The notes under the pieces were generated by a model. It ran no database searches and was not told the origin of the DNA. It saw only the letters and a list, made by a program, of their open reading frames with translations. Positions 1 through 13,875 of a stretch of 64,000 bases of DNA are shown here, in pieces; the first letter of the stretch is position 1, and every line of letters begins with the position of its first letter. Both the position numbers and the translations under genes were made by a program. Source of the DNA: Aminomonas paucivorans DSM 12260 (GTDB lineage Bacteria; Synergistota; Synergistia; Synergistales; Synergistaceae). Where the stretch lies: NCBI RefSeq assembly GCF_000165795.1, contig NZ_CM001022.1, forward strand, positions 2,203,812-2,267,811. Direction: 5' to 3'.

Positions 1-151
1 GGAGGGTGTCCATGCCCATGGCGGGACCGAAAATGAGGGGCACCAGGGTGGTGGCCCCGAAGAGGGTGAGCACGTGCTGCGCCCCCGCGAGGATCATGAT
101 GGGTGTCGGGGGCTTGTCGTTCAGGCCGTACACGATCTGTTTGCGTGCCAT
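1..151 (-). CDS. NCS2-family xanthine/uracil permease, N-terminal fragment
   Basis: This is the first 50 residues of a membrane permease that runs off the left edge of the window. The start (MARKQIVYGLNDKPP) is the typical opening of UraA/XanP-type NCS2 transporters, followed by a hydrophobic first segment containing AGAQHVLTLFGATTLVP, the family's QH region. An AGGAGGTG ribosome site lies just upstream of the ATG at 149-151. It is the last gene of a minus-strand purine/pyrimidine cluster, immediately after cytosine deaminase, so uptake of xanthine, uric acid or uracil is the likely role. Substrate cannot be decided from this fragment. Confidence 0.85.
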   Translation of the reverse strand, partial: MARKQIVYGLNDKPPTPIMILAGAQHVLTLFGATTLVPLIFGPAMGMDTL

Positions 152-214: not shown

Positions 215-1543
215 CTACCGCCTTCTCTGGCCGGGCACCTCCCCTCCCCTGGGCTCCACCCCTCGGACGGGAACCCGAAGGTCCACGTCCCGGCGGAATC
301 CCCCCAGGTCCAGGGACCGCACCGCCGGACGGGTCTTCAGGGCCGCGACGCCGCGCCGCACCGCGTAGAGGCAGTCGCTCTCCCGACGGATCGCGTCGAA
401 CTCGTCCTCCGCGTCCCACACCGCAAAGTTGGCGGGCTTGCCCGCCTCGATGCCGTACCGGCCCTCCACCTGCAGGGTCTTGGCGGAGTTGGCAGTGATC
501 ATGTCGAAGAGGGCGAAGATCTGCTCGTAGCCGCTCATGTGGGCGGTGTGGAGCAGCAGGTTCGCCGCCTGGAGCATGGACCCCTTCCCCAGGGGGTACC
601 AGGGGTCCATGATGGAATCATGTCCGATGCACACGTTGATCCCCCGGGCATGCATCTCGTCCACCCGGGTGTGCCCCCTCCGGCGGGGGTAGCCGTCGGT
701 GCGGTTCTGGAGCACCGAGTTGTCGAAGGGGTTGGTGATGAAGTTCATCTTCGACCGCTCGGCGATGCCCAGGAGCTTGAAGGCATAGTCGTTGTGGTAA
801 TTGTGCATGGCCGTGGCGTGGCTGGCGGTCACCCGTTCCCCCATGCCCGTGGACAGGGCCCGGGCCGCCATCACCTCCACGAACCGGGACTGGTCGTCCC
901 CCGTCTCGTCGCAATGGATGTCGATGAGGGCGTCGTGCTTTCGGGCCAGCTCGAAGGCCAGCTCCACGTCCCGCACCCCGTCCTCCCGGGTGAGTTCGTT
1001 GTGGGGGATGCCCCCCACCACGTCCGCCCCCATGTCCAGGGCCCGGCGCATCAGGGCCTCCCCCTCCGGGAAGGTGAAGACCCCGTCCTGGGGGAAGGCC
1101 ACGATCTGCACCTCCACCAGGTCCTTCACCCGGTCCTTCACCTCCAGGAGCGCCTCCAGTGTCAGGAGGGACGGGTCCGTCACGTCCGCGTGGGTACGAA
1201 TAAACTGCACCCCCTGGGCGAACTCCCACAGCACCGCCTCCACCGCGTTGTCCACCAGTTCCTTGCGGGTGAGGCGGGGCTTGCGCTCCCCCCAGATCTG
1301 GATGCCCTCCAGCAGGGTGCCGGAGGCGTTGAAGCGAGGGTCCCCCACGGAGAGCACCGCGTCCAGGTGCAGGTGGGGGTCGCACAGGGGCGGGGTGGTG
1401 AGGTTCCCCTCCGCGTCGATCTCCTCCCGTCCCTGCTCCTCCAGGGCGGGACCGATCTTCCGGATGATCCCCCCGTCCACGGCGATGTCCGTCCGTTCCT
1501 CGGCCCCCCGCAGGCGAGCGTTGCGCACCACCAGGTCCAGCAT
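215..1543 (-). CDS. codA: Cytosine deaminase (amidohydrolase superfamily)
   Basis: A 442-aa cytosolic amidohydrolase, close in length to E. coli CodA, that would deaminate cytosine (or a related oxo-pyrimidine/creatinine-like ring) to uracil and ammonia. Visible metal and catalytic motifs are DPHLHLD near residue 57, IDIHCDETGDD around residue 209, SHATAMHNY, and the GHDSIMDPW aspartate motif near residue 310. This is the CodA pattern rather than that of dihydroorotase or hydantoinase. The ATG is preceded by a purine-rich AAGGAGGAGGAGGAAGGG stretch. It lies 28 bases after the cytosine permease gene, so transport and deamination are co-transcribed. The C-terminal 40 residues are Arg/Gly-rich and may be poorly conserved. 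Confidence 0.9.
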   Translation of the reverse strand: MLDLVVRNARLRGAEERTDIAVDGGIIRKIGPALEEQGREEIDAEGNLTTPPLCDPHLHLDAVLSVGDPRFNASGTLLEGIQIWGERKPRLTRKELVDNAVEAVLWEFAQGVQFIRTHADVTDPSLLTLEALLEVKDRVKDLVEVQIVAFPQDGVFTFPEGEALMRRALDMGADVVGGIPHNELTREDGVRDVELAFELARKHDALIDIHCDETGDDQSRFVEVMAARALSTGMGERVTASHATAMHNYHNDYAFKLLGIAERSKMNFITNPFDNSVLQNRTDGYPRRRGHTRVDEMHARGINVCIGHDSIMDPWYPLGKGSMLQAANLLLHTAHMSGYEQIFALFDMITANSAKTLQVEGRYGIEAGKPANFAVWDAEDEFDAIRRESDCLYAVRRGVAALKTRPAVRSLDLGGFRRDVDLRVPVRGVEPRGGEVPGQRRR

Positions 1544-1571
1544 GCCCTTCCTCCTCCTCCTTCTTCCGGGA

Positions 1572-2861
1572 TCAGCAGCCCGGTTCTTCCGCCGGCACCG
1601 GAGCGGGGCCGTGGAGCAGCCGGTCCGCCGCCGCGTAGACCAGCGCCGCGACCACGATGGCGTTCAGGGGGGCGACGCTGAAGGTCCCCACCGGGGGGGA
1701 GAATTGGGACGCGGCGATGGCCACCCCCCAGGCGATCAGGGCGGCCCCGTTGACGGAGCGGAAGGGGTAGTCCTCCAGGGCTGGGTAGCGCCCTCGCCAC
1801 TTGAGGAAGAAATCCCCGATGAGGATGCCCCCGATGGGGGGCAGGGAGACGCTTAGAAACACCAGCCAGTTCACGAAATGGTTGTAGAGGAAGTGGGCCA
1901 GCAGGGTCCCCGCGGCACCCGCCAGGATCGTGAGCCGCCTGCGCTTGCCCCCGGTGATGTTGGCCAGTCCCAGACCGGAGGCGTAGAGGGCGTTGTCGTT
2001 GGTGGTCCAGATGTTCAGGGCCAGCAGGGCGATGCCGCCCCCCAGAAGGCCCTGGGCAGCCAGGACCTCCGACGTGTCCGCCACCCCCGTGGCCATGGCC
2101 CCCAGGGCGCCGAAGAAGAACATGAGGCTGTTGCCGAAGGTGAAGCCCACGGCCGTGGCCCCCACCCCGCCGGTCCGGCTGCGGGAGAAGCGCACGAAGT
2201 CCGGGGTGAGGGTGGCGCCGCTGATGAAGGACCCCACCCCCAGGGCCACCCCCTTGGCGAAGGTGAGGGGCTTGGAGGGCTCCACGGCCAGGAGGGCCGC
2301 AAGCCCTCCCGCGTCGGCAAACGCCCGGGCCATGGACCAAAACCCCAGGAAGAGGATGGCGGGGACGGCGATCCAGCTGATCCACTCGATGGCCTTGAAC
2401 CCGATGACCACCGTGCCGGTCATGAGGACGCCCCCCAGCAGGATCAGGGGCGTCAGGGGAACCCCCAGGAGCTTCTGGATGGGGTAGGCGAACATGGCCA
2501 CCCCCACGCCGAACCAGCCGATCTGGGTGAGGGCCAGCATGAAGGAGGGCAGCTTGGAACCGAAGGTTCCGAAGGCGTGCCGGGCCAGGATGTGGGTGGA
2601 CAGGTTGGTGGCGGAGGCAGCATACCCCAGAAAGGCCCCGTAGACCCCCAGGATCAGGTTCCCCGCGAGGACGACGACCACCAGGTCCGGCCAGAGACGG
2701 AACCCCGTCCCCAGCGCCCCTCCCGTCCACATGCTGGCGGCGAAGAAGGTGAACCCCAGCATCACCATGGACATGGAGAGGAAACCGCGACGCTCCCCCT
2801 CCGGCACCGGGGTCAGGGCATAGTCGTCGTGCACGCTCTCCCGGGTCTTTTGCGCGGACAT
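1572..2861 (-). CDS. codB: Cytosine/purine permease, NCS1 family (CodB-like)
   Basis: A 429-aa polytopic membrane protein of the NCS1 nucleobase:cation symport family. About twelve hydrophobic segments are visible, with NCS1-type signatures such as GIALLALNIWTTNDNALYASGLGL and a LTPDFVRFSR motif around the middle. The ATG at 2859-2861 (MSAQKTRESVHDD) was chosen because AAGGAAGGGG lies upstream at good spacing; an in-frame GTG 30 bases earlier has no better site. Next to codA it should import cytosine, though allantoin or purine import cannot be excluded. Confidence 0.88.
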   Translation of the reverse strand: MSAQKTRESVHDDYALTPVPEGERRGFLSMSMVMLGFTFFAASMWTGGALGTGFRLWPDLVVVVLAGNLILGVYGAFLGYAASATNLSTHILARHAFGTFGSKLPSFMLALTQIGWFGVGVAMFAYPIQKLLGVPLTPLILLGGVLMTGTVVIGFKAIEWISWIAVPAILFLGFWSMARAFADAGGLAALLAVEPSKPLTFAKGVALGVGSFISGATLTPDFVRFSRSRTGGVGATAVGFTFGNSLMFFFGALGAMATGVADTSEVLAAQGLLGGGIALLALNIWTTNDNALYASGLGLANITGGKRRRLTILAGAAGTLLAHFLYNHFVNWLVFLSVSLPPIGGILIGDFFLKWRGRYPALEDYPFRSVNGAALIAWGVAIAASQFSPPVGTFSVAPLNAIVVAALVYAAADRLLHGPAPVPAEEPGC

Positions 2862-2941
2862 CCCGCCACACCCCTTCCTTGGGTTCCCCACAAGCAGGCT
2901 CCGGGACGGGAGAGCCCCCGCCCCGAAGCCCGGAGTTCAGC

Positions 2942-5359
2942 TTACAGCCATTCCTTGATGGCGCTCTTGTAGCTCTGCTCCTGGGCGTAGGGATACTCCC
3001 AGAGGTCCGTCTCCCCCCTCTTGCCCATCTGCACGGCCTTGTACACCCGCTCCTTGGAGAAGGGATAGGTGTGGATCCGCACCCCCAGGGCGTCGAACAG
3101 GGCGTTGTCGATGGCCGGGGCCGGGGAGATCATGGAGTGTTCCCCGATGCCCCGGTTCCCGTAGGGGGACAGCTCCTCCGGGGTCTCCTCCCAGAAGGCG
3201 TCGATGTCCTCCGGCACGTCCATGGAGGTGGACATCTTATAGTCCGTGAAGTCCGGGGTCAGGAGACGTCCCTTCTCGTCGTAGTACATCCCCTCCATGA
3301 GCCCCGCGGAGATGCCCTGCACCGTGCCGCCCTCGATCTGCCCCCGCACGTTGATGGGGCTGATGGCGCGGCCCACATCATACCCGGCGCTCACCCGGTT
3401 GACCACCACTTCCCCCGTGGCGGGGTCCGCCTCGATGTCGATCCCCACGGCCCCCACGGTGAAGTGCACCACGCTCTTCCGGGACTGCCCCGTCTCCGCG
3501 TCCGGGTAGGTGATGTCCGGAGGGGTGAAGGAACCGGTCCCCACCACGGGCCCGCCGTGGAGGTTCCCGTCGGGCATGAGGAAACCGTTCTGGATCCGTT
3601 CGTCCAGGGGCTCGGACCGCCCCGCCTTGCGGCACTTCACCACCCCGTGTTCGATGGTGATGCTCTCCGGTTCCACCTGCCAACACTGGGCGTAGAGGGC
3701 GAGCAGCTTCTCCCGGGCATCCGTGGCGGCCCGCTTGACCGCCATGCCCATGGACCAGCAGGAGCGGCTGGCCACGGTCTGCCAGTCGTAGGGGTGGCTG
3801 TTGGTGTCCGGGAAGAGGCAGCGGATCTTCTCCAGGGGGATCCCCAGCTCCTCCGAGACCATCTGGGCGTAGGCGGTGTAGGCCCCCTGCCCCATGTCCA
3901 TGGTGGCCGCCAGGACCTCCACGGTGCCGTCCCCCAGGATCTTCACCAGGGCGGAGGAGGAGGCGTCGGCGGGCATGGCGGGGGCCTTGATGGCCAGGGC
4001 GAAGCCCTTGCCCCGAACCCATCCGGGCCGGGTGGCCTCTTCCTTGCGCTTCAGGCCGATGCGGTCCACCACCTTGCCCACGATGGTGCTCAGGGCGTGG
4101 TTGTGCATGGGCATGCCCGTGCAGGTGGGAAGCCCCGGCTGAAGCATGTTCTTCAGGCGGAACTCGATGGGATCCATGCCGATCTTCCGGGCGGCGATGT
4201 CGATGATCACCTCCATGGCTCCCATGAGTTCCGGAAGCCCGAAGCCCCGGTAGGCCCCCCCGAAGGGCTTGTTGGTGTACACCGCGTAGCTGTCCGTCCA
4301 CACGTTGGGGACGTAGTAGCACCCCGTGGAGGTGTAGCCCGCGCTGCGCACCGGGTTGGCCCCGTACTCCGCCGAGACCCCCGTGTCGAAGAAGAAGGTG
4401 TTCTTGATGGCCTGGATCTTCCCCTCCTTGTCGATGCCCAGCTTGATCTTCGCCACGTAGGCCTGGCGCACCCAGGAGGTGAGGAGCACCTCCTCCCGGG
4501 GGATGTAGAGCTTCACAGGGCGTCCCCGAAGGTCCGGATCCATGGCCCCGGCCAGACACAGGGACTCCACGGTCATCCCCGCCTTGCCCCCGAAGCCGCC
4601 CCCGATGGGAGGGGCCACGACCCGGATCTTGTGGAGGGGGTAGTTCAGTCCCTTGGCCACGATGTCCCGCACGGCGAAGGCGGACTGGGCGGCGGTCCAG
4701 ATGGTGAGGTTCCCCGTGGCGGGGTCCTCCTTGCAGATGCAGCAGTGGGGTTCCAGAAAGCCGTGGGCGATCTGGGGGCAGTTCACCGCCTCCTCCACGA
4801 TGTATTCCGACTCCGCGAAGGCCTTGTCCACGTCCCCCCGGCGGATGCGGAACCAGTTGGCGATGTTGGTTCCCGGCTGGGGGGTGAGGTAGGGGACCCG
4901 CTCGTAGGTCTCCAGCTCCGGGTGCACCAGCACTCCGTTGTCCGTGGCTGCCTGGATGGGGTCGAACACCGCCGGGAGTTCCCGGTACTTGGCGGTGATC
5001 TGGAGCATCCCCTCCTCCGCCGCCTCCTCCGTCTCCGCCACCACCAGGGCGATGGGTTCCCCCACGTAGCGCACCTTGCGGATGGCCAGGGGGGTGCGGT
5101 CCTGGAGGTAGAGGCCGAAGCGATGGACGAACTGATCTCCCGTGATGACCTTGACCACCCCGGGGACCTTCAGGGCGCCGGAGACGTCGATGGAGAGGAT
5201 CTCCCCGTGGGCCACGGTGGAGCGGGCCGCCCGGGCGTGGAGCAGCTCCGAACCGAACCGAAGGTCATCGGTGAACTGCAGGGTCCCGGCGGCCTTCTCC
5301 ACGTCGTACTGGCGGGGGACCCACTTGCCCACCCCGTCGTTGGTGATGGTCTGCTTCAT
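2942..5359 (-). CDS. xdhA: Xanthine dehydrogenase-type molybdenum hydroxylase, molybdopterin-binding subunit
   Basis: An 805-aa large subunit of a molybdenum hydroxylase that oxidises purines such as hypoxanthine or xanthine, passing electrons to the 2Fe-2S and FAD subunits encoded just upstream. The N-terminal aldehyde-oxidase a/b hammerhead domain (about residues 20-130) is followed by the Mo-pterin domain with PIGGGFGGK near residue 253 and the conserved GxGE base motif (GIGEHSM) near residue 738. The gene order FAD, FeS, Mo with 12-base gaps gives an L-M-S heterotrimer. Substrate is inferred from neighbours (codA, codB, FdrA set, PucR); nicotinate or another heterocycle is possible. No in-frame TGA suggesting selenocysteine was seen. 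Confidence 0.9.
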   Translation of the reverse strand: MKQTITNDGVGKWVPRQYDVEKAAGTLQFTDDLRFGSELLHARAARSTVAHGEILSIDVSGALKVPGVVKVITGDQFVHRFGLYLQDRTPLAIRKVRYVGEPIALVVAETEEAAEEGMLQITAKYRELPAVFDPIQAATDNGVLVHPELETYERVPYLTPQPGTNIANWFRIRRGDVDKAFAESEYIVEEAVNCPQIAHGFLEPHCCICKEDPATGNLTIWTAAQSAFAVRDIVAKGLNYPLHKIRVVAPPIGGGFGGKAGMTVESLCLAGAMDPDLRGRPVKLYIPREEVLLTSWVRQAYVAKIKLGIDKEGKIQAIKNTFFFDTGVSAEYGANPVRSAGYTSTGCYYVPNVWTDSYAVYTNKPFGGAYRGFGLPELMGAMEVIIDIAARKIGMDPIEFRLKNMLQPGLPTCTGMPMHNHALSTIVGKVVDRIGLKRKEEATRPGWVRGKGFALAIKAPAMPADASSSALVKILGDGTVEVLAATMDMGQGAYTAYAQMVSEELGIPLEKIRCLFPDTNSHPYDWQTVASRSCWSMGMAVKRAATDAREKLLALYAQCWQVEPESITIEHGVVKCRKAGRSEPLDERIQNGFLMPDGNLHGGPVVGTGSFTPPDITYPDAETGQSRKSVVHFTVGAVGIDIEADPATGEVVVNRVSAGYDVGRAISPINVRGQIEGGTVQGISAGLMEGMYYDEKGRLLTPDFTDYKMSTSMDVPEDIDAFWEETPEELSPYGNRGIGEHSMISPAPAIDNALFDALGVRIHTYPFSKERVYKAVQMGKRGETDLWEYPYAQEQSYKSAIKEWL

Positions 5360-5371
5360 GGCCGTCCCCCC

Positions 5372-5851
5372 TTATCCCTGTTCCTTCATCAGCGCCGCCG
5401 CCTTGCGCACCGCCCGGAAGATGCCCGTGTACCCGGTGCACCGGCAGAGGTTCCCCGAGAGCCCCACGCGAATCTGTTCGTCCGTGGGTTCCGGGTGGCG
5501 ACGCAGCAGGTCCACCACCGACAGGATCATGCCGGGGGTGCAGAAGCCGCACTGGATGGCCCCCTCGTCGATGAAGGCCTGCTGCACCGGATGCAGCTCC
5601 CCCTTGGGGCCCAGGAGCCCCTCCGTGGTGACCACGGAGCGCCCCTCCGCCTCCAGGGCCAGGACCATGCAGGATTTCTGGAGGACGTCGTCCAGCAGCA
5701 CCGTGCAGGTGCCGCACTCCCCCTCTTCGCAGCCCCGCTTGACGCTGGTGACGCCGTGCTCCCGCAGGGCCCGCAGCAAGGTGGTGCGAGGCTCCACCTC
5801 CAGGGTCACGGGCTTGCCGTTGAGGGTGAACGAAACGGATCGTTTCGACAT
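5372..5851 (-). CDS. xdhC: Xanthine dehydrogenase-type 2Fe-2S subunit
   Basis: A 159-aa subunit carrying two [2Fe-2S] clusters that relays electrons from the Mo site to FAD. The plant-type ferredoxin half has GCEEGECGTCTVLLD (residues about 40-55); the second, all-helical half has CGFCTPGM and NLCRCTGY. Length and cysteine spacing are standard for small subunits of molybdenum hydroxylases. AGGAGG precedes the ATG at 5849-5851. The gene lies 12 bases downstream of the FAD subunit and 12 upstream of the Mo subunit. Confidence 0.93.
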   Translation of the reverse strand: MSKRSVSFTLNGKPVTLEVEPRTTLLRALREHGVTSVKRGCEEGECGTCTVLLDDVLQKSCMVLALEAEGRSVVTTEGLLGPKGELHPVQQAFIDEGAIQCGFCTPGMILSVVDLLRRHPEPTDEQIRVGLSGNLCRCTGYTGIFRAVRKAAALMKEQG

Positions 5852-5863
5852 GTTCAGGACCTC

Positions 5864-6721
5864 CTACAGCCTTTCCAGGCAGGCGCGGACCGCCTTCTTG
5901 GTGAGTTCTGCCACCATGGAGAGCCGATACTCCCGGCTGGCCCGCACGTCCGTGATGGGGTTCACCGCCCCCGCCGCCTCCTGGGCGACCCGATCCAGCA
6001 GGGCCTCGTCGGGGTTGCGCACCCCCCGCAGGAGGGCCTCCGCCTTGGCGGCCCGCACCGGGACGGGAGCCACGGCGCCGTAGGCCAGGCGGAACTCAAG
6101 CCCCCCGGGGGCGTCCACGACCAGACAGGCCACCCCCACCTGGGCCAGGTCCAGGGCGTTGCGCCGCCCCAGCTTGATGTAGCATCCCGCGCAGGGGCCA
6201 GAGGGCACGGGAAAGGTCGCCCGGGTGACGATCTCCCCCCGGGCCAGGACGTTGCGCCGAGGTCCGGTGATGAAGTCCCGCATGGGCACCTGCCGGGACC
6301 CTCCCGGGCCCGCCAGGTGCAGTACCCCCTCGTGGGCACAGGAGGGGGGGATCAGGTCCCCCGAGGGCACGGAGGCGCAGAGGTTCCCCACCAGGGTGGC
6401 CTTGTTGCGGATCACGTGGTCCGAGTGGGAGAGAGCGGCGTCCAGCAGGGCGGGGAAGAGCCCCGCCTGGGGGTGCTCCGCCAGCTCGTTCAGGGTGGCG
6501 CAGGCCCCCACGGAGAGCCCCTCCCGGGGGTCGAAGGCGATCCCCCGCAGCTCCGGGATGGCGGAAAGGTCCACCACCAGCCCCGGCCGCACCGCGTGTT
6601 TCTTCATCCACACCAGCAGGTCCGTGCCCCCCGCCTTGGCCATGGGGGCCCGCCCGTCCTCCGCCAGAAGCCGCACCGCTTCCGCCAGGGTCCGGGGTCG
6701 TTCCATCTCAAAGGAAAGCAT
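5864..6721 (-). CDS. xdhB: Xanthine dehydrogenase-type FAD-binding subunit
   Basis: A 285-aa FAD-binding medium subunit of the same molybdenum hydroxylase. It begins MLSFEMERPRTLAEAVRLL, has the PCMH-type FAD pocket signatures KAGGTDLLVWMK and ATLVGNLCASVPSGDLIPP, and ends with a CO-dehydrogenase flavoprotein C-terminal domain. The ATG at 6719-6721 follows a GGGGGGAG site at good spacing; an alternative non-ATG start 24 bases upstream is less likely. A strong terminator lies 23 bases upstream, so this gene may have its own promoter inside the preceding gene or depend on readthrough. Confidence 0.9.
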   Translation of the reverse strand: MLSFEMERPRTLAEAVRLLAEDGRAPMAKAGGTDLLVWMKKHAVRPGLVVDLSAIPELRGIAFDPREGLSVGACATLNELAEHPQAGLFPALLDAALSHSDHVIRNKATLVGNLCASVPSGDLIPPSCAHEGVLHLAGPGGSRQVPMRDFITGPRRNVLARGEIVTRATFPVPSGPCAGCYIKLGRRNALDLAQVGVACLVVDAPGGLEFRLAYGAVAPVPVRAAKAEALLRGVRNPDEALLDRVAQEAAGAVNPITDVRASREYRLSMVAELTKKAVRACLERL

Positions 6722-6743
6722 GCACTCAACTCCCCCCAGCAAC

Positions 6744-6774
6744 AAAAAAGGGGCGTCCCACGTGGAGACGCCCC
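6744..6774 (-). terminator. Rho-independent terminator between the two halves of the purine cluster
   Basis: A perfect 8-bp stem (GGGGCGTC 6750-6757 with GACGCCCC 6767-6774) with a 9-base loop is followed on the minus strand by six T residues (6744-6749). It sits after the cyclase gene and before the molybdenum hydroxylase genes, so it probably separates or attenuates the two transcripts. Confidence 0.85.
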
Positions 6775-6784
6775 CGCCGACCCT

Positions 6785-7588
6785 CTATTCCTCCGCGAAG
6801 GCCACGATGCGGCTGATGCAGGACTCCCCGCCCACGAACTTCCAGGGGAAACAGCCGATGGTGACCCGCTTGCCCGACAGGAGGTCGATGTCCCCGCCCA
6901 GGCACTCCGCGTGGATGATGTTGTGGGGGAACAGCTCGATGTGCATGAGCTGGTAGTCCTCGGGAGGGAAGAAGTCGTCCAGCCCCTTGCCGTACTTGCC
7001 CTTCAGGTGGGCGTCCGCCAGCTTGGCGTACTGGGGCATCCACTCCCGGATCTTCGTGTTCATGGGATGGTCCGCGGAACCGCAGTCCACCCCGAGCCAC
7101 TTGATCTTGCGCTTCTCGCACCAGTGGGCGAACTCCAGGGTGGGACCGGGGTGCTTGATCATGTAGCGGATCTCGTCCGCCTCGGGCTGGTCCCATCCGT
7201 ACTTGTGGTAGCCCGTGTTGATGATCAGGATGTCCCCGTCGTGCACCTCCGCCCGGTCCTCGATGTCCTTGCTGCCGTAGATGCCGTAGTCCTCCGCCAT
7301 GTCGGAGAGGTCCACCACCACGCCGGGGCCCACCAGGTAGTTCTTCAGCTCCAGGCTGGCGATGTCTCCCCCGTGGGTGCAGAAGTGCAGGGGACCGTCC
7401 AGGTGGGTGCCCACGTGGTTGGAGTGGGTGAGCAGCTGGCCGTTGGCGCCGTTGGGAGCCAGGCGCTTGAAGAACTTGATCTGCAGGGGCTCATAGGTGG
7501 GCCATGCAGGGGTCAGGTGGCTGATGGGGATGGACAGGTCGTACACCTTCAGGTCGTTCCAGTTCTTCAGTTCCCAGTTGTTGCTCAT
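6785..7588 (-). CDS. Cyclase-family metal-dependent hydrolase (kynurenine formamidase-like fold)
   Basis: A 267-aa cytosolic protein of the cyclase family (PF04199), whose members include bacterial kynurenine formamidase and isatin hydrolase. The diagnostic metal motif HxGTHxDxPxH is visible as HVGTHLDGPLHF near residue 61. A second conserved region, LLIINTGYHKYG, follows near 125, and a C-terminal IHAECLGGDIDLL segment is present. AAGGAGG precedes the ATG. Its position in a purine/pyrimidine operon after DUF1116 suggests hydrolysis of an amide or ring intermediate. The real substrate is unknown; tryptophan catabolism is not otherwise indicated here. Confidence 0.8.
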   Translation of the reverse strand: MSNNWELKNWNDLKVYDLSIPISHLTPAWPTYEPLQIKFFKRLAPNGANGQLLTHSNHVGTHLDGPLHFCTHGGDIASLELKNYLVGPGVVVDLSDMAEDYGIYGSKDIEDRAEVHDGDILIINTGYHKYGWDQPEADEIRYMIKHPGPTLEFAHWCEKRKIKWLGVDCGSADHPMNTKIREWMPQYAKLADAHLKGKYGKGLDDFFPPEDYQLMHIELFPHNIIHAECLGGDIDLLSGKRVTIGCFPWKFVGGESCISRIVAFAEE

Positions 7589-7631
7589 GGCTTCGCGCCT
7601 CCTTAGTGGTTGTGTGGGGTCTTTCCCGAAT

Positions 7632-7647
7632 CGGCGGGATCCCGCCG
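7632..7647. repeat. 16-bp palindrome in the gap between DUF1116 and cyclase genes
   Basis: CGGCGGGATCCCGCCG is self-complementary over its full length and could form a small hairpin in the 73-base intercistronic gap, for example affecting mRNA processing or stability. No T-run follows on either strand, so it is not called a terminator. Confidence 0.5.
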
Positions 7648-7661
7648 GAGTTACCGCGTTC

Positions 7662-8921
7662 TTAGTCCTCCAGGTACTTCTCCACGAAGGCCTCGGCAGC
7701 CTTGGTGAAGGCCTCGGCGGGCATGCGGACGATCCCCGCCCCCACCTGCCCCTTGCCGGGCTCCTTGTTGGCCGCCCCCGTGTCCAGCACCGGGGTGATG
7801 CCCGTCTCCGCCACCTTGAGCACGTCGATCCCCGTGGGGGTCCCCCGGAAGTTCAGGGAGGGGATGGAGTACATGGTGTTCTCCCCCAGGGTGATCTCGT
7901 ACATCTCCAGGGTGTACTTCGCCGCGTCTGCGGGGGTGCCGCCGATGAACTGCACGATGGCGGGAGCGGCGGCCAGGGCGAACCCGCCCACCCCCAGGGT
8001 CTCCATGATGGCGCTGTCCCCGATGTCCCGGTTCACGTCGTCCTTGGTGAAGCCAGGGAAGAGGAGCACGTCCGGCAGGGCGGCCTGACAGGTGAACCAC
8101 CGACGCCCCAGGCCGGAGACCTGGATGCCCATGTCCGTGCCGTTGCGGGCCATGATGGTGACCAGGGAGGAACCCTCCACGTCGTGGGCCGCCTCGGTGC
8201 TGGCCTTGGCGGCGGCCATGGCCAGGTTGAGGAAGAAGTGGTCGTTCTTGTCGATGAAGCGCAAGACCTCCGCCAGATCCCGGCAGTTGGGCACCGCCTC
8301 GATCAGGAAGGGGGTGAGGGCCCGGAGGAACAGGCTGGTGCCAGCCTTGTTCCGGTTGTGCATCTCGTCTCCCATGTGCAGGGCCTGGGCGATGAGGTTC
8401 TTCAGGTCGATGCCCCCCTGCACCTCCGCAGCCTTGCGGATCCCCGCGTGGAGGTTGGGGTAGAGGACGTGGAGCATCCACTTGAGGTGTTCGATCACCT
8501 CCGGGGCGAAAGCCCCCATGCGCATGACCTTCCCCAGCCCCTCGTTCATGCTGCAGTAGGCCTTGTTGCCCCGATCCCGGTTCTCGATGACGAACACGGG
8601 CATGTTGGGGCTGGTGACCCCCGCCATGGGCCCCACGGCGTGGTGGTGGTGGCAGGGGTCGAAGGAGATCTGCCCGCTCGCCGCCACCCTCTGGGCCTCC
8701 TCGGGATCCGCGGCCCACCCCTCGTAGAGGCACGCCGCCATCACCGCCCCCCTCATGGGGCCGGACATGCGCTCCCAGGTGATGGGGGGCCCCGCGTGGA
8801 GCAGGGTCTTCTCCCCCATGCCGGGGATCACGTCCTTCGCCAGCCCCATGTCCGTCAGCACGGGCTGGGCGGACAGAAGCCGGGACAACGCCTCGCGGTT
8901 CGCCTGTTCGATGTCCACCAT
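7662..8921 (-). CDS. DUF1116 protein (YlbE/AllG-like, FdrA-associated)
   Basis: A 419-aa DUF1116 protein. E. coli YlbE (AllG) of this family acts with FdrA and YlbF as oxamate carbamoyltransferase, which splits a carbamoylated oxamate to give carbamoyl phosphate at the end of allantoin breakdown. Visible family features include a long N-terminal segment starting MVDIEQANREALSRLLSAQP, SPNMPVFVIENRDRGNKAYC near residue 110, and NGTDMGIQVSGLGRRWFTC near residue 262. It starts at an ATG with AGGA upstream, 12 bases after the small FdrA-associated gene. The carbamoyl-transfer role here is inferred from family and synteny, not from recognisable active-site residues. Confidence 0.85.
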   Translation of the reverse strand: MVDIEQANREALSRLLSAQPVLTDMGLAKDVIPGMGEKTLLHAGPPITWERMSGPMRGAVMAACLYEGWAADPEEAQRVAASGQISFDPCHHHHAVGPMAGVTSPNMPVFVIENRDRGNKAYCSMNEGLGKVMRMGAFAPEVIEHLKWMLHVLYPNLHAGIRKAAEVQGGIDLKNLIAQALHMGDEMHNRNKAGTSLFLRALTPFLIEAVPNCRDLAEVLRFIDKNDHFFLNLAMAAAKASTEAAHDVEGSSLVTIMARNGTDMGIQVSGLGRRWFTCQAALPDVLLFPGFTKDDVNRDIGDSAIMETLGVGGFALAAAPAIVQFIGGTPADAAKYTLEMYEITLGENTMYSIPSLNFRGTPTGIDVLKVAETGITPVLDTGAANKEPGKGQVGAGIVRMPAEAFTKAAEAFVEKYLED

Positions 8922-8933
8922 GGTCGTTCCTCC

Positions 8934-9110
8934 TTACCCTCTCTTCAGCTTCCGCAGCTTCGCCAGCAGATCCGAACTGGCCTGGGGGGGGGTCCATTCC
9001 ATCTGCACCACCCGGGTCTTCTGGGCCTCCAGGTCCGTGGCGAACTGCTCCACCCCGATGTTCACCACCACCGGCCCCTCCTTGAGCAGGGCCTTCAGCT
9101 TCTCGTGCAC
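8934..9110 (-). CDS. 58-aa FdrA-associated small protein (FdrA-domain type)
   Basis: A small GTG-initiated gene (VHEKLKALLKEG, ending KLRKLKRG) squeezed between fdrA and the DUF1116 gene. It starts five bases after the fdrA stop, with GGTGAGGAC as ribosome site. The motif VVNIGVEQFATDLEAQ followed by VVQMEWTPP matches what I know as short 'FdrA domain' proteins encoded next to fdrA in other anaerobes. The conserved position suggests a structural subunit of the FdrA/DUF1116/DUF2877 complex. No catalytic residue can be named. Confidence 0.75.
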   Translation of the reverse strand: MHEKLKALLKEGPVVVNIGVEQFATDLEAQKTRVVQMEWTPPQASSDLLAKLRKLKRG

Positions 9111-9115
9111 CGTCC

Positions 9116-10648
9116 TCACCCCTTCAGCAGGTACGCCGCCAAGCGGGCCGCCTGGGCGTTGCTGTGGCACACCGTCACCCCCGCCTCCTCCAGGATGCGG
9201 CGCTGCCGCGCCCCGTCCTGGGGATCCGCCTCGGTGCCGCAGATGGAGGCCACGAAGGCGATGCGGTCCTTCCCCAGGGCCCGGGCCTTGAGGATCCCCT
9301 CCACCAGCCCCGTGGCGGGGTCGGGGTTGCAGCCGTAGCCGATGACCACGTCGAAGAGGATCACCCCCACCTCCGGGTCCTTGGCCTCCTCCTCGAACCG
9401 GGCGGCCCGCAGGGACACGTCGATCATGGGATGCAGCCGCCCCTGGGTGAACTCGTCCTCCCCGAAGTCCACGATGGAGTGTTCCACCGAGGCCAGGCTG
9501 TCCTCCAGGCGCAGCTCCTTCTTCAGGGGGGTGTTGCTGTGGATGGGCCCCAGCAGGTCCTGGGCGATGAGCTGGGCCTCGTAGCACAGGGTGCCGCCGG
9601 AGTAGAGCCCCCGGAGCCACCCCTTGCGGGGGCCGATCTTCCCCGCCAGGGCCTTGAGGGCATCGTCCGCCTCCGCCAGGCTTCGGCGGGCGGAGGCCAC
9701 GTCCTCCCCCTTGGCCAGGGCGGCGGCCACCGCGGCGGTCTCCTCCAGCTCCCGGCAGATGTACACCGGGGGCTGGTCCCCCCGAGCCTCCCCGCCGATG
9801 AACCCCAGGACGGCGGGTTTCCCCCCCGCCCGAACCTGGGCCAGGATCTTTTGCTCCACCTCCGGAGCCGGGGGCTTGCCCACCACCACCAGGACCTTCA
9901 CCTCGTCGTCCGCCAGGAGGGTCTGGACCCCCATCTCCACCATGAGGCCCCCCACCTCGGCCTTCACGTCCCGGCCGCCGGTTCCGATGCCGTGGAGGGT
10001 CCCCACGCCCCGCTTGGCCAGCTGGACGTGTACCTCCTGGAGCCCCGTCCCCGCCGCGGCCACCAGGGACACGGGCCCGGTGGGACAGGCGTTGGCCATG
10101 CCCATGGCCACTCCCCGGACGATGATGGTGCCGCAGTCCGGCCCCATCACCAGAAGCCCCTTCTCCCGGGCCACCTTCTTGATCTCCACTTCCTTCTCCA
10201 GGGACACGTTGTCGGAGTAGAGCATCACGTTCAGGTCCCGCCCCAGACACTCCAAGGCCACGTCCCCGGCGTAGCGCCCCGCCACGGAGACGATGGCCAG
10301 GTTGGCCTCCGGCAGCACCGTCACCGCTCCGTCCAGACTTCGGGGCCGGTAGGTCCCTCCGTCGTCCTGGTTCTGCCGCCAGGGCGGGTTGGCCAGGTAG
10401 GCCTTGGCGGTGGACAGGGCCTCCTCCAGGACCGACTCCTCCCCGGCCACCGCCAGGATCAGGTCGTTGGGTCCGGCTTCCAGCCCCGTCAGGTCGAAGC
10501 CCCCCGCCGCCAGGATCCGCAGGTTCGCCTCCGTGCCCATGGACAGGGAGGCGCTCTTGACCCCTTCCCGAGCGGTGATTTCCTTGGCCACCCTCATGAG
10601 GGTGACGCTGTCGTAGTAGGTGCGGGCGATCACTTCCAAGCGCTGCAA
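9116..10648 (-). CDS. fdrA: FdrA, acyl-CoA synthetase-like subunit of a carbamoyltransferase-type complex
   Basis: A 510-aa protein related to succinyl-CoA synthetase alpha/beta folds; E. coli FdrA (AllF) works with YlbE and YlbF in oxamate carbamoyltransfer. A Rossmann-like CoA-ligase core is seen with MGPDCGTIIV near residue 168 and AAAGTGLQEV near residue 198. A second ligase-type domain carries LYSGGTLCYEAQ near 345 and VVIGYGCNPDPATGL near 440. It starts at a rare TTG (10646-10648) with GGGAGGTGA six bases upstream; no better in-frame start lies nearby. It is flanked by the partner families in the order DUF2877, fdrA, small protein, DUF1116. No carbamate kinase gene is in the window. Confidence 0.88.
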   Translation of the reverse strand: MQRLEVIARTYYDSVTLMRVAKEITAREGVKSASLSMGTEANLRILAAGGFDLTGLEAGPNDLILAVAGEESVLEEALSTAKAYLANPPWRQNQDDGGTYRPRSLDGAVTVLPEANLAIVSVAGRYAGDVALECLGRDLNVMLYSDNVSLEKEVEIKKVAREKGLLVMGPDCGTIIVRGVAMGMANACPTGPVSLVAAAGTGLQEVHVQLAKRGVGTLHGIGTGGRDVKAEVGGLMVEMGVQTLLADDEVKVLVVVGKPPAPEVEQKILAQVRAGGKPAVLGFIGGEARGDQPPVYICRELEETAAVAAALAKGEDVASARRSLAEADDALKALAGKIGPRKGWLRGLYSGGTLCYEAQLIAQDLLGPIHSNTPLKKELRLEDSLASVEHSIVDFGEDEFTQGRLHPMIDVSLRAARFEEEAKDPEVGVILFDVVIGYGCNPDPATGLVEGILKARALGKDRIAFVASICGTEADPQDGARQRRILEEAGVTVCHSNAQAARLAAYLLKG

Positions 10649-10693
10649 GCGCGGTCACCTCCCGGTGCGGCCCCGAGGGCCGTCCCTTCCCCC

Positions 10694-11416
10694 CTAGCGG
10701 GGGGCTGTTGCGTCAAACCTCCCCAGTGCCCCGGCGAATCCCGCCAGCCAGGCCCTTCCGGAGGTGTGTCCCCAATCCGTCATGGCCGAGACGGCCCGGA
10801 GCACCGCCTCCCCGTCCTCCCCCTCCAGGGCGGCCGTCAGGGCCGCCGGACGGGCCCAGGCGAGCCCCTCCAGGGCGTCCCGGATCACCTCTCCCGCCAG
10901 CCAGGCGGTGCACCCCGGATCGAACCGTCTTCCCAGCTCCCCCCGGGCACGAAGGCTCTCGGGGGAACCGATCCACCCCAGGGCCACCAGCCACCCCGCG
11001 ATCCAGTCGTCCCCCGCGGGGGTGTGCCCCGGCCCCAGGCCCGCCAGGGTCAGGGGGTCCTCCTCCCGCAGGGCTTCCCCCAAGACCCGAAGCTCCGGGT
11101 CCTCCAGGAAGACGGGCCATTCCTCCCACAGGGGCCGCCACCGGGGGCGGGGCCTCCCCGGACGGATGCGGGGGTCGAAGCGAAGCCCCTCCTCCCCCCT
11201 CGGGAGGTCCGGTCCCGGCTCCCCCTCCCGAAGCTCCGGCAGAAGGCTCAGCCAGGCTGTCCGGGGCCCCAGGTCCCTAGGGTCCGTCACCAGGCTGAAG
11301 CGCCTCCCCCGGGGGTCTTCAAGGTTCACCGCCCGGCGGTGCGCCTCCCGCACCCGAAGGGGCGGGGGAACGTCCGGCCAGTCGACGCTGACCCCCAGGA
11401 GGACCGGGGTGTCCAC
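10694..11416 (-). CDS. DUF2877 protein (YlbF/AllH-like)
   Basis: A 240-aa protein with the DUF2877 hallmark GLGPGHTPAGDDWIAG near residue 127 and a C-terminal TDWGHTSGRAWLAGF motif. In E. coli the family member YlbF (AllH) is the third component of oxamate carbamoyltransferase. The GTG start (11414-11416) follows the TAG of the CoA-transferase gene with no gap, so the two are translationally coupled. The protein is Arg/Pro-rich in its first 110 residues, where it looks divergent. Confidence 0.82.
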   Translation of the reverse strand: MDTPVLLGVSVDWPDVPPPLRVREAHRRAVNLEDPRGRRFSLVTDPRDLGPRTAWLSLLPELREGEPGPDLPRGEEGLRFDPRIRPGRPRPRWRPLWEEWPVFLEDPELRVLGEALREEDPLTLAGLGPGHTPAGDDWIAGWLVALGWIGSPESLRARGELGRRFDPGCTAWLAGEVIRDALEGLAWARPAALTAALEGEDGEAVLRAVSAMTDWGHTSGRAWLAGFAGALGRFDATAPR

Positions 11417-12613
11417 CTAAATGGCCCCCTCCTCCCGCAGCTTCCGGATCTCCTCCTCCGACATCCCCAGGAGGCCGCCGTAGATCGCCCCCACGTGCTC
11501 CCCCAACAGGGGAGCGGGACCGGCGATGGACGCAGGGGTCTCGGAGAACTTGATGGGCACCCCGGGCATCTTCAGTTCCCCCGCCACGGGATGAGCCACC
11601 GGGACGATCATCTCCCGAGCCAGCACCTGAGGGTCCGACACCACCTTGTCGATGGTGTTGATGGGGCCGCAGGGCACCTGCACCGCCATCAGGGCCTCCA
11701 TCCACTGGGCCGTGGTCTTCCCCTGGGTCTGGGCGTTCAGGATCGCCTTGAGGGCGAGCCAGTTCTCGATGCGGTCCCGGTTCGTGAGGAACCGGGGGTC
11801 CGCGGCGGTCTCGGGGATTCCCAGGACCTCGCACAGGCGGGCCCACAGCACGTCGTTCCCCGCGGCGATGTTGATGAACCCGTCGGCGCTCTCGAAGGTG
11901 GCGAAGGGGCAGATGGAGGGATGGTCGTTCCCGATGGGGCCCGGAGCCACGCCGCTGGTCTCGTACCGGGCCACGGCGTTCTCCAGGGTGGCCACCAGGC
12001 AGTCCAGCATGGCCACGTCCACCATCTGGCCCCGGCCGGTGAGGTCCCGGTGGTGCAGCGCCGCCAGGATCCCCGTGACCGCGAAGATCCCCGCCAGGAT
12101 GTCCGCCATGGAGGACCCCACCTTGAGGGGGTGCTTCGGGTCCGTCCCGGTGATGCTCTGAAGCCCCCCCATGCCCTGGACGATGAGGTCGTAGGCGGGG
12201 CGGTCGCTGTAGGGCCCCGTCTGGCCGAAACCCGAGCTGGCGGCGTAGATGAGCCGGGGGTTCACCCGGGAGAGAACGTCGTAGTCCAGCCCCAGCTTCT
12301 TCATGGTGCCGGGCTTGTAGTTCTCCACCAGGATGTCCGCCCGCGCCGCCAGTTCCTTGAGGATGCGCTTCCCCTCGGGGTGCTTCAGGTTGAGGGTGAC
12401 GCTCTCCTTGCCCCGATTGAGGCTCATGAAGTAGGCGCTCTCCCCGTTTTGGAAGGGGGTGTAGGCCCGGGCGTCGTCCCCCCCCTGGGGGTTCTCCACC
12501 TTGATGACCCGTGCCCCCATGTCCGCCAGCATCATGCCCGCAAAGGGCCCCGCCAGCACCCGGGTCAGGTCCAGCACCACCAGTCCTTCCAGGGGCTTCT
12601 TCCTCTCCGTCAT
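11417..12613 (-). CDS. Family III CoA-transferase (CaiB/BaiF-like)
   Basis: A 398-aa class III CoA-transferase that moves CoA between carboxylic acids through an aspartyl-acyl anhydride. It opens with PLEGLVVLDLTRVLAGPFAG and contains NRGKESVTLNLKHPEG. The GSSMADILAG segment near residue 163 contains the likely catalytic Asp, and the C-terminal CaiB domain has FINIAAGNDVLW. The ATG at 12611-12613 has GGGAGG overlapping the end of the upstream gene. In this operon it may activate oxamate, oxalate, formate or another small acid from ring breakdown. The substrate is unknown, and I know of no standard purine route that explains its presence. Confidence 0.85.
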   Translation of the reverse strand: MTERKKPLEGLVVLDLTRVLAGPFAGMMLADMGARVIKVENPQGGDDARAYTPFQNGESAYFMSLNRGKESVTLNLKHPEGKRILKELAARADILVENYKPGTMKKLGLDYDVLSRVNPRLIYAASSGFGQTGPYSDRPAYDLIVQGMGGLQSITGTDPKHPLKVGSSMADILAGIFAVTGILAALHHRDLTGRGQMVDVAMLDCLVATLENAVARYETSGVAPGPIGNDHPSICPFATFESADGFINIAAGNDVLWARLCEVLGIPETAADPRFLTNRDRIENWLALKAILNAQTQGKTTAQWMEALMAVQVPCGPINTIDKVVSDPQVLAREMIVPVAHPVAGELKMPGVPIKFSETPASIAGPAPLLGEHVGAIYGGLLGMSEEEIRKLREEGAI

Positions 12614-12618
12614 GGCCT

Positions 12619-13506
12619 CTACCTCCCGTAGGGGATGCGTCTTGCCGGCTCGAAGGCGCAGCGGCCTTCGTGCAGGATGCCCTCGTAGCTTCCCAGGTTC
12701 CGGTCCTCCACGTGGTCGAACCACTGCTCCGAGGAGCCGCAGGGGACCACCTTCCGCAAGGGGTCCGGGTCCAGCTCAGCCCAGATGTACTCCTCGCTGG
12801 CCCGGGCCTGGGCCAGCTTCACCGCCGTGGGGTGCACGATCATGGAACCGCCGAAGTAGAAGGACCCCGACTCGTCCCGCCCCACGGTGTTGGTGGCGAT
12901 CCAGTACACGTGGTTGTCGTAGGCCCGGGCCCGGTTGGTCAGGTCCCAGTGGTCGAAGGTGCGCATGAACGCCGAGGGCCGGCAGATGACCTCCGCCCCC
13001 AGCAGGGTGGTGGCCCGGGCCAGCTCCGGGAAGTCCCCGTCGTAGCAGATCACGATGCCGATGCGCCCCAGGGGGGTGTCGACACAGAAGGGCCTGCACC
13101 CCGGGGTGGTCCAGCCGCCCCCCTCCAGGCGCTCCGTGGGAAAGGGGTGGGTCTTCCGGTAGACCCCGAGGATTCCGTCGGGGCCGATGAGGGCGGCGGA
13201 GTTGTACACCACCCCGCGCTCCTCCCCCCGCTCATAGGTGGGGTACACCAGGTGGATGCCGAACTGCCGAGCCCAGCGCACCCCCACATCCGTCAGGGGA
13301 CCCGGGATGGAGGTCACCGCATCCCAGATGTCCGAGGCGGTCCCCCGGGGGGTGAACCCCGTGGTGAAGCTCTCCGGCAGTACCACCAAGTCCGCCTTGG
13401 ATTCCCGAACGCAGGCGTCGATCCACCCCTCCGCCTTCTCCAGGTTGGCCCGCACATCCATGGGCTCAATGGCGAACTGGATCGCCGCCCCGATCATTCG
13501 TCGCAT
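12619..13506 (-). CDS. Nitrilase-superfamily amidohydrolase (carbamoyl-amino-acid hydrolase-like)
   Basis: A 295-aa carbon-nitrogen hydrolase with the full Glu-Lys-Cys triad: LPESFTTGF near residue 45, YRKTHPFP near 118 and ICYDGDFPE near 155. Members cut linear amides or ureido groups such as N-carbamoyl-beta-alanine. It is the first gene of the minus-strand purine/pyrimidine cluster and is divergent from the PucR-type regulator. The start was set at the ATG 13504-13506 because GAGGAGG lies nine bases upstream; a TTG immediately before it is also in frame. Ureidoglycolate, oxamate or N-carbamoyl-amino acid are candidate substrates by context. Confidence 0.85.
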   Translation of the reverse strand: MRRMIGAAIQFAIEPMDVRANLEKAEGWIDACVRESKADLVVLPESFTTGFTPRGTASDIWDAVTSIPGPLTDVGVRWARQFGIHLVYPTYERGEERGVVYNSAALIGPDGILGVYRKTHPFPTERLEGGGWTTPGCRPFCVDTPLGRIGIVICYDGDFPELARATTLLGAEVICRPSAFMRTFDHWDLTNRARAYDNHVYWIATNTVGRDESGSFYFGGSMIVHPTAVKLAQARASEEYIWAELDPDPLRKVVPCGSSEQWFDHVEDRNLGSYEGILHEGRCAFEPARRIPYGR

Positions 13507-13875
13507 CAAGAACGTCCTCCTCGTGAATTGAGGTTCTTGTCACTCATCCACATCGACCCGGGCAACCCACGCCATCGTCCCGACGCGCCAGCCCCCGTGG
13601 AAGGGGAAAGGGGACTTCGTGCCGAACATTCCATGCCCCTTCGCCAGGTTACCCCTCAAGGCCGTGAAGCCGAAGGGGACAAAACCCCGATGAAGAGGCA
13701 GCACCGCGACGTTTCTCCCCCCTTACCGGCCACGGACCCGCTTGCGGATCCTCGCACCACACCTACAATACCCGTTAGGGAGAGGAGCGCACATGGCAAC
13801 AGGTGACATGTTTCCACCGCGCCCCGGGCAACTCTCTCCATATTGGACCTGAATTCACATGAAGGAGGACAGGCC
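13507..13875. promoter_or_regulatory. Divergent intergenic region between the catabolic operon and the pucR-type gene
   Basis: This 369-base gap must contain promoters for both directions and probably the regulator's binding site. A plus-strand candidate is TTGCGG (13742-13747), 16 bases, TACAAT (13764-13769). A weaker minus-strand candidate is a -10 TAACCT at 13646-13651 with TTCGGC 17 bases away. No clear operator palindrome was recognised and no coding sequence is convincing. Confidence 0.45.

Follow-up and report, generated by a model that had tools for sequence, protein, structure and literature searches.

A conserved operon of Aminomonas paucivorans with a predicted phosphorolytic route for pyrimidine catabolism

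The question raised by this locus is which compound feeds a set of carbamoyl-transfer genes that stands among genes for cytosine metabolism. The locus lies in a 64,000-nucleotide stretch of Aminomonas paucivorans DSM 12260 (contig NZ_CM001022.1, positions 2,203,812 to 2,267,811; the window), where homologues of AllF (FdrA), AllG (formerly DUF1116), and AllH (formerly DUF2877) are encoded in one operon with a nitrilase-like amidase, a family III coenzyme A (CoA)-transferase, a cyclase-family hydrolase, a molybdenum (Mo) hydroxylase, and the cytosine genes codA and codB. In Escherichia coli, AllFGH has been experimentally established to convert oxalurate to carbamoyl phosphate and oxamate (PMC11326118). 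A sequence-only reading of the window had proposed a single anaerobic pathway from purines or hydantoin-like rings to carbamoyl phosphate and an acyl-CoA. The single pathway is supported as a reading, its substrates being deduced, and we conclude that the operon probably serves to break down cytosine and uracil, and possibly also thymine, by an anaerobic oxidative route with energy kept via phosphorolysis.

Results

The run comprises 12 closely spaced minus-strand genes, from 13506 down to 215, with intergenic gaps below about 75 bp (Table 1), and it extends beyond the left edge of the window, where an NCS2 nucleobase permease gene begins at 151. All genes named in the sequence-only reading, as a co-directional run divergent from a PucR-type regulator, were recovered on the minus strand; codB and the NCS2 permease gene were not named there. 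Gene content, family membership, conserved context, and intact catalytic motifs lead us to predict the following substrates and reaction directions. The base would be imported by CodB and the NCS2 permease, and CodA would deaminate cytosine to uracil. The Mo hydroxylase would oxidize uracil to barbiturate with oxygen from water, and the cyclase-family hydrolase (PF04199) would open barbiturate to ureidomalonate, an N-acylurea that exceeds oxalurate by one carbon. AllF, a 58-amino-acid (58-aa) protein, AllG, and AllH would then cleave ureidomalonate phosphorolytically to carbamoyl phosphate and malonamate, a step modeled on the oxalurate reaction of E. coli AllFGH. ATP would be made from carbamoyl phosphate by a carbamate kinase that scores over its model cut-off elsewhere in the genome (C1:427856). 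Malonamate would be hydrolyzed to malonate and NH3 by the amidase, malonate would be converted to malonyl-CoA by the CoA-transferase, and a biotin/Na+ decarboxylase set encoded elsewhere (C1:459421) would yield acetyl-CoA and CO2. Should acetyl-CoA serve as CoA donor, CoA would be cycled by the last two steps and acetate released. The predicted balance is uracil + 4 H2O -> acetate + 2 CO2 + 2 NH3 + 2[H], with one ATP via carbamoyl phosphate.

The three AllFGH homologues are encoded together, with AllG and AllH over the cut-offs of PF06545 and PF11392. AllF falls just short of the PRK06091 cut-off (431 versus 433 bits), a score obtained without a C-terminus, and the missing C-terminus is the 58-aa open reading frame (ORF). 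Window AllF ends at the point where E. coli AllF carries a segment matching this ORF (36% identity to residues 507-550, E = 3e-9 in a two-sequence test), and the ORF is also 46% identical to the N-terminus of E. coli YahG, while in Clostridia and Anaerolineae a segment of this type forms an N-terminal extension of AllG. Because of these matches, the segment is, judging by alignment, a single movable piece that stands alone in Synergistota but is part of AllF in the allantoin operon of E. coli and part of AllG elsewhere; the placement of its gene between those of AllF and AllG suggests a role at the AllF-AllG interface. E. coli AllG sits on a long branch of the AllG tree, far from window AllG. 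The allFGHK genes adjoin triuret genes in nitrifiers (PMC12625717), which fits a broader N-acylurea role. An overlapping ORF at 7651-8997 was rejected as AllG, as it lies in the wrong frame. Separately, one Synergistota allG (L094, G022:C1:1438853-1439511) is split into several frames by a stop or frameshift and is intact in a same-genus relative, reflecting either decay or sequencing error.

AllG relatives with their flanks were recovered at 66 loci in a scan of 84,980 genomes, and loci were also retrieved from the 14 of 121 related genomes in which AllG was found; collapse at 90% AllG identity left 60 distinct loci. The loci share ancestry, so that counts are not independent events; the larger labels need several changes on the AllG tree. 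Of the 66 loci from the scan, 51 have the same cyclase-family gene next to AllG, and 43 of these also have Mo hydroxylase genes. The common order in Synergistota is nit-coaT-AllH-AllF-58aa-AllG-cyc-moM-moS-moL-NCS2, and the operon is far beyond chance because gene order is kept across phyla. Two Synergistota loci (L095 and L096) have the same genes, including those for the nitrilase and CoA-transferase, in a rearranged order, which argues for function over merely inherited order. Relatives of the amidase and CoA-transferase also accompany the module outside Synergistota (L027, L036, and L063). Neighborhood comparison had been set beforehand as a test that could refute a single pathway, and both the CoA-transferase and the cyclase proved to be conserved with FdrA/DUF1116/DUF2877 in other genomes. 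One contig binned as Phycisphaerales (L021) carries an operon nearly identical to that of a Synergistaceae genome (L067) and is probably misbinned.

The linked transport and deamination genes point to pyrimidines. CodA and CodB exceed curated cytosine cut-offs (Table 1), and the window NCS2 permease has in its ENIG signature a Glu, as in uracil permeases, versus Gln in XanQ and UacT; in UapA, a Gln-to-Glu change at the same position confers uracil recognition (PMC5972032). A codB over its cut-off likewise adjoins the module in L071, from a rumen Clostridia genome, and in four sampled Clostridium operons (L038, L039, L042, and L051) a uracil permease over its cut-off (592-645 versus 477 bits) lies directly downstream of the Mo hydroxylase, followed in L051 by a carbamate kinase, also over its cut-off. 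The codAB genes stand at the operon end, NCS2 permeases take their place in most relatives, and a terminator-like hairpin within the operon (Table 1) is possibly a partial terminator that could reduce expression of the downstream half. These features would suit two unrelated functions on one transcript, namely, pyrimidine salvage (codAB and the permease) and an AllFGH/Mo hydroxylase unit with another substrate, an arrangement that we consider very unlikely given that pyrimidine-type transporters recur independently beside the module in Clostridia.

The predicted ring opener adjoins AllG across phyla and contains the HxG[T/A]HxDxPxH metal motif of PF04199 enzymes with the isatin hydrolase/KynB fold (PMC6117287) as H58-V-G-T-H62-L-D64-G-P-L-H68, with H58, H62, D64, and H68 kept. 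The isatin hydrolase signature GLQC/GLAS was not found in its sequence, the likely corresponding segment being IIHAE. Four of the 66 AllG loci lack the cyclase and have instead an AtzD-family ring opener beside AllF-AllG; no locus has both. In Proteobacteria, the cyclase gives way to a barbiturase-family enzyme: that of a betaproteobacterial locus (L064) scores 482 bits to the solved barbiturase versus 305 to cyanuric acid hydrolases and shares 83-90% identity with the enzymes of L068 and L073. No AtzD-family barbiturase is encoded in the operon, nor was one matched in the host genome, where the search control was also silent. We predict that the PF04199 enzyme takes the place of an AtzD-type barbiturase here. 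In L064, the barbiturase-like gene and AllF-AllG are immediately preceded by a hydantoinase B gene (2566-4455 and 4469-5563), and an NMT1-type ATP-binding cassette binding protein is present.

The fourth locus, from a Pelolinea metagenome-assembled genome (L053:11386-12471), has beside AllF-AllG an enzyme closer to cyanuric acid hydrolase and a gene for a cytosine-deaminase-like enzyme, possibly a phosphorolytic cyanuric acid/biuret route. By analogy, the window operon might handle a different N-acylurea, derived from cyanuric acid or another urea-containing ring, with a triazine or creatinine-like ring as the aminohydrolase substrate of CodA. Of the alternatives considered, this seems to us the least probable: no AtzD-family gene was found in the host genome (with the search control silent), CodA and CodB are over the cytosine cut-offs, and cyanuric acid needs no Mo hydroxylase.

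Downstream of the phosphorolytic step, the amidase has an intact Glu-Lys-Cys triad (E46, K119, and C155, conserved in 15 orthologues), and its relatives in the PDB include omega-amidase-type Nit proteins. The CoA-transferase carries the catalytic Asp of family III (D173, conserved in 20 orthologues); it scores under all NCBIfam equivalog cut-offs, so that no substrate is assigned by a model. In five Anaerolineae loci, genes for a methylmalonyl-CoA decarboxylase-type carboxyltransferase, a biotin carrier, and a Na+ decarboxylase beta subunit lie beside AllF-AllG-cyclase, and in two of them (L034 and L078) the decarboxylase genes stand in a single run with genes for a Mo hydroxylase and a CodA-like protein. 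The best match of the linked carboxyltransferase subunit is methylmalonyl-CoA decarboxylase (781 bits, under the cut-off of 999). This match would suit thymine as the main feed of the same pathway, via 5-methylbarbiturate, methylmalonamate, and methylmalonyl-CoA, and the classical uracil dehydrogenase also accepts thymine. Nevertheless, CodA and CodB would supply uracil rather than thymine, and the curated transporter matches are uracil permeases, which makes thymine quite improbable as the main substrate.

The oxalurate reaction of E. coli AllFGH suggests another course, in which a purine-, hydantoin-, or imidazole-derived ring yields oxalurate, AllFGH forms carbamoyl phosphate and oxamate, the amidase makes oxalate, and the CoA-transferase makes oxalyl-CoA. 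YfdE and formyl-CoA:oxalate transferase are among the CoA-transferase relatives, the Mo hydroxylase subunits are most similar to those of xanthine dehydrogenase (XDH)-type enzymes, and purine-type genes (ygeX/hyuA/ssnA) adjoin the module in L043, L056, L090, and L094. However, oxalyl-CoA decarboxylase is absent from all 80 loci and does not reach its cut-off in the host genome (best 174 versus 739 bits). The operon contains neither an allantoinase nor a carbamate kinase gene, as had been noted from the sequence, and at the thresholds applied no homologue of AllB, AllC, or AllD (allantoinase, allantoate amidohydrolase, and ureidoglycolate dehydrogenase) was found in it or in the module loci. 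The host has a separate purine-type cluster about 80 kb away (ygfK, ygeY, ygeW, hyuA, and two Mo hydroxylases, at about C1:2115000-2132000; locus L109, C1:2112001-2132000). The oxalurate course is thus unlikely, and the earlier proposal of a purine, hydantoin, or allantoin-oxalurate feed gives way to a pyrimidine feed because the linked transporters and deaminase are of pyrimidine type, a barbiturase is the ring opener that takes the place of the cyclase, the decarboxylase linked to the module is of (methyl)malonyl-CoA type, and purines have a cluster of their own.

The lower half of the pyrimidine route appears to be exchangeable. Neither the amidase nor the CoA-transferase occurs in 34 loci, mostly from Clostridia and Anaerolineae, which encode instead a 224-aa GNAT-fold protein, with an AlphaFold predicted local distance difference test (pLDDT) score of 90, many GNAT matches in the PDB, and no Pfam family. 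The amidase and CoA-transferase (at least 45% identity) occur in 9 loci and together with the GNAT gene in none, a zero that is not strict, as the L063 sequence breaks off at the point where L058, its nearest relative, has the GNAT gene. A thiolase-like protein comes next in 28 loci, usually with a small Zn-ribbon/OB partner, and none of these coincides with the 5 loci that have the biotin decarboxylase. The thiolase-like protein retains the GHP histidine but lacks the nucleophilic Cys, having GPASG where a solved relative has ACASG. We speculate that the GNAT-like protein might convert malonamate and CoA to malonyl-CoA and NH3, and that the Cys-less thiolase might decarboxylate malonyl-CoA. 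The GNAT-like protein was judged less likely to be the malonyl-CoA decarboxylase itself, because L033, L034, L075, and L078 have both it and the biotin decarboxylase.

Several observations weigh against pyrimidine catabolism as the function of the operon. The molybdopterin subunit, in which E203 and E740 are conserved in 45 relatives, is far under every equivalog cut-off (446.9 versus 780 bits for xanthine dehydrogenase, NCBIfam XdhA), and uracil as its substrate is deduced from context only because no equivalog was matched. Synergistota NCS2 permeases, including that of the window operon, score closer to xanthine than to uracil permease, under the cut-off. PF04199 includes formamidases, isatin hydrolases, and other enzymes, and the predicted structure of the cyclase (pLDDT 46) is too poor for use. 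The L053 enzyme is closer to cyanuric acid hydrolase than to barbiturase (499 versus 312 bits), and the barbiturase-bearing loci have no adjoining Mo hydroxylase save a weak, divergent one in L068. Some relatives of the CoA-transferase are specific for oxalate. Finally, the published description of A. paucivorans gives amino acids as substrates and does not list pyrimidines (PMC3035310).

The pucR orthologues of other Synergistota are likewise divergent from the equivalent operon. A scan for sigma-70-like consensus found no site in the divergent intergenic region (13507-13875), the scan overall performing at chance level. An MFS/ATG22-like transporter gene (15435-16676, minus strand) is convergent with pucR and touches its end. 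The G+C content of the window is 67.8%, and large plus-strand ORFs over the operon (e.g., 2879-7606 and one of 1155 aa at 9164-12631) were rejected as high-GC antisense frames.

Table 1. Features of the operon and its surroundings, with examples of the alternative lower-half genes from other loci
Feature	Position	Strand	Evidence
NCS2 nucleobase permease, start (rest outside window, L106:12568-13962)	1..151	-	Signature ENIGLIGLTG
Cytosine deaminase CodA	215..1543	-	PRK09230, 511.4 bits (cut-off 483)
Cytosine permease CodB	1572..2891	-	PRK11017 equivalog, 494.9 bits (cut-off 326)
Mo hydroxylase molybdopterin subunit, predicted uracil dehydrogenase	2942..5359	-	MoCoBD_1/2
Mo hydroxylase 2Fe-2S subunit	5372..5851	-	Fer2_2, 111 bits
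Mo hydroxylase FAD subunit (start maybe 6721)	5864..6745	-	FAD_binding_5, 125 bits
Terminator-like hairpin and U-run, cyclase/Mo hydroxylase gene junction	6739..6775	-	11 pairs, TTTTTGTTGC tail, fold z -1.8
Cyclase-family metal hydrolase, predicted barbiturate ring opener	6785..7588	-	PF04199, 114 bits
AllG homologue	7662..8921	-	PF06545, 326.5 bits
58-aa ORF, detached AllF C-terminal segment	8934..9110	-	Pairwise identity to E. coli AllF and YahG
AllF/FdrA homologue, without last ~50 residues	9116..10648	-	PRK06091, 431.1 bits (cut-off 433), matched 9-493 of 555; Ligase_CoA
AllH homologue	10694..11416	-	PF11392, 86.5 bits
Family III CoA-transferase, predicted malonate CoA-transferase	11417..12613	-	CoA_transf_3, 456.5 bits
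Nitrilase-like amidase, predicted malonamate amidase	12619..13506	-	CN_hydrolase, 160.6 bits
Divergent intergenic region, likely promoters of both units	13507..13875		Direct reading
PucR-type transcriptional regulator	13876..15438	+	PucR (PF07905), 101.9 bits; HTH_30 (PF13556); divergent from operon
GNAT-fold protein (example)	L056:12142-12816
Cys-less thiolase-like protein (example)	L049:12771-13970
Zn-ribbon/OB partner (example)	L029:12930-13271

Discussion

The predicted route overlaps only in part with known systems. Like E. coli AllFGH (FdrA-YlbE-YlbF, the oxamic transcarbamylase), the window encodes three homologous subunits in one operon, for which the same phosphorolysis of an N-acylurea to carbamoyl phosphate and an amide is predicted. 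In contrast to the E. coli system, there are no allantoin genes, the AllF C-terminus is a separate ORF, AllG is distant, and the predicted amide is malonamate, not oxamate. The second E. coli set, yahEFG-yahIJ, shares the AllH-AllF-AllG order and a nearby CodA-like amidohydrolase, whereas it lacks the Mo hydroxylase, cyclase, amidase, and CoA-transferase and has a carbamate kinase-like gene. With the oxidative pyrimidine pathway of Rhodococcus and Nocardia (uracil dehydrogenase, barbiturase, and ureidomalonase), the predicted route has in common the intermediates uracil, barbiturate, ureidomalonate, and malonate. It differs in that the ring opener is a cyclase-family metal hydrolase and not an AtzD-type barbiturase, ureidomalonate would be split by phosphate rather than hydrolyzed to urea, malonate would be activated to malonyl-CoA, and hosts of the window type are obligate anaerobes. 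The predicted fate of malonyl-CoA is that of malonate decarboxylation by biotin/Na+ decarboxylases, the genes for which occur beside the module in Anaerolineae and in the host genome, although the window route would use a CoA ester made by the CoA-transferase.

Oxamate carbamoyl transfer by AllFGH and oxidative pyrimidine catabolism are thus known, and the predicted novelty is a phosphorolytic variant of the latter. The sequence-only reading had called the route undescribed, which agrees with our finding no description of a barbiturate/ureidomalonate route with carbamoyl phosphate in the open-access literature (subscription papers were outside the search); its purine or hydantoin-like starting ring is the part that the evidence replaces by pyrimidines.

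The pathway seems to be widespread in anaerobes. A broader proposal, which in our judgment could as well be wrong as right, is that Synergistota, Clostridia, and Anaerolineae ferment pyrimidines via barbiturate with energy kept in three ways (carbamoyl phosphate, a CoA ester, and Na+ pumping), and that FdrA/AllG/AllH form a general N-acylurea phosphorylase family served by no fewer than three ring-opening enzymes (cyclase family, barbiturase, and cyanuric acid hydrolase), for which oxamate is one acceptor only. The usual description of pyrimidine breakdown in anaerobes is a reductive one, from dihydrouracil to beta-alanine. If the prediction is correct, strict anaerobes, including acetogenic and rumen Clostridia, would have a second, oxidative and ATP-yielding route for pyrimidines, the substrate range of FdrA/DUF1116/DUF2877 would be wider than oxalurate, and a cyclase-family protein would have the role of a barbiturase. 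The source of carbamoyl phosphate in such organisms would then be directly testable with three purified enzymes.

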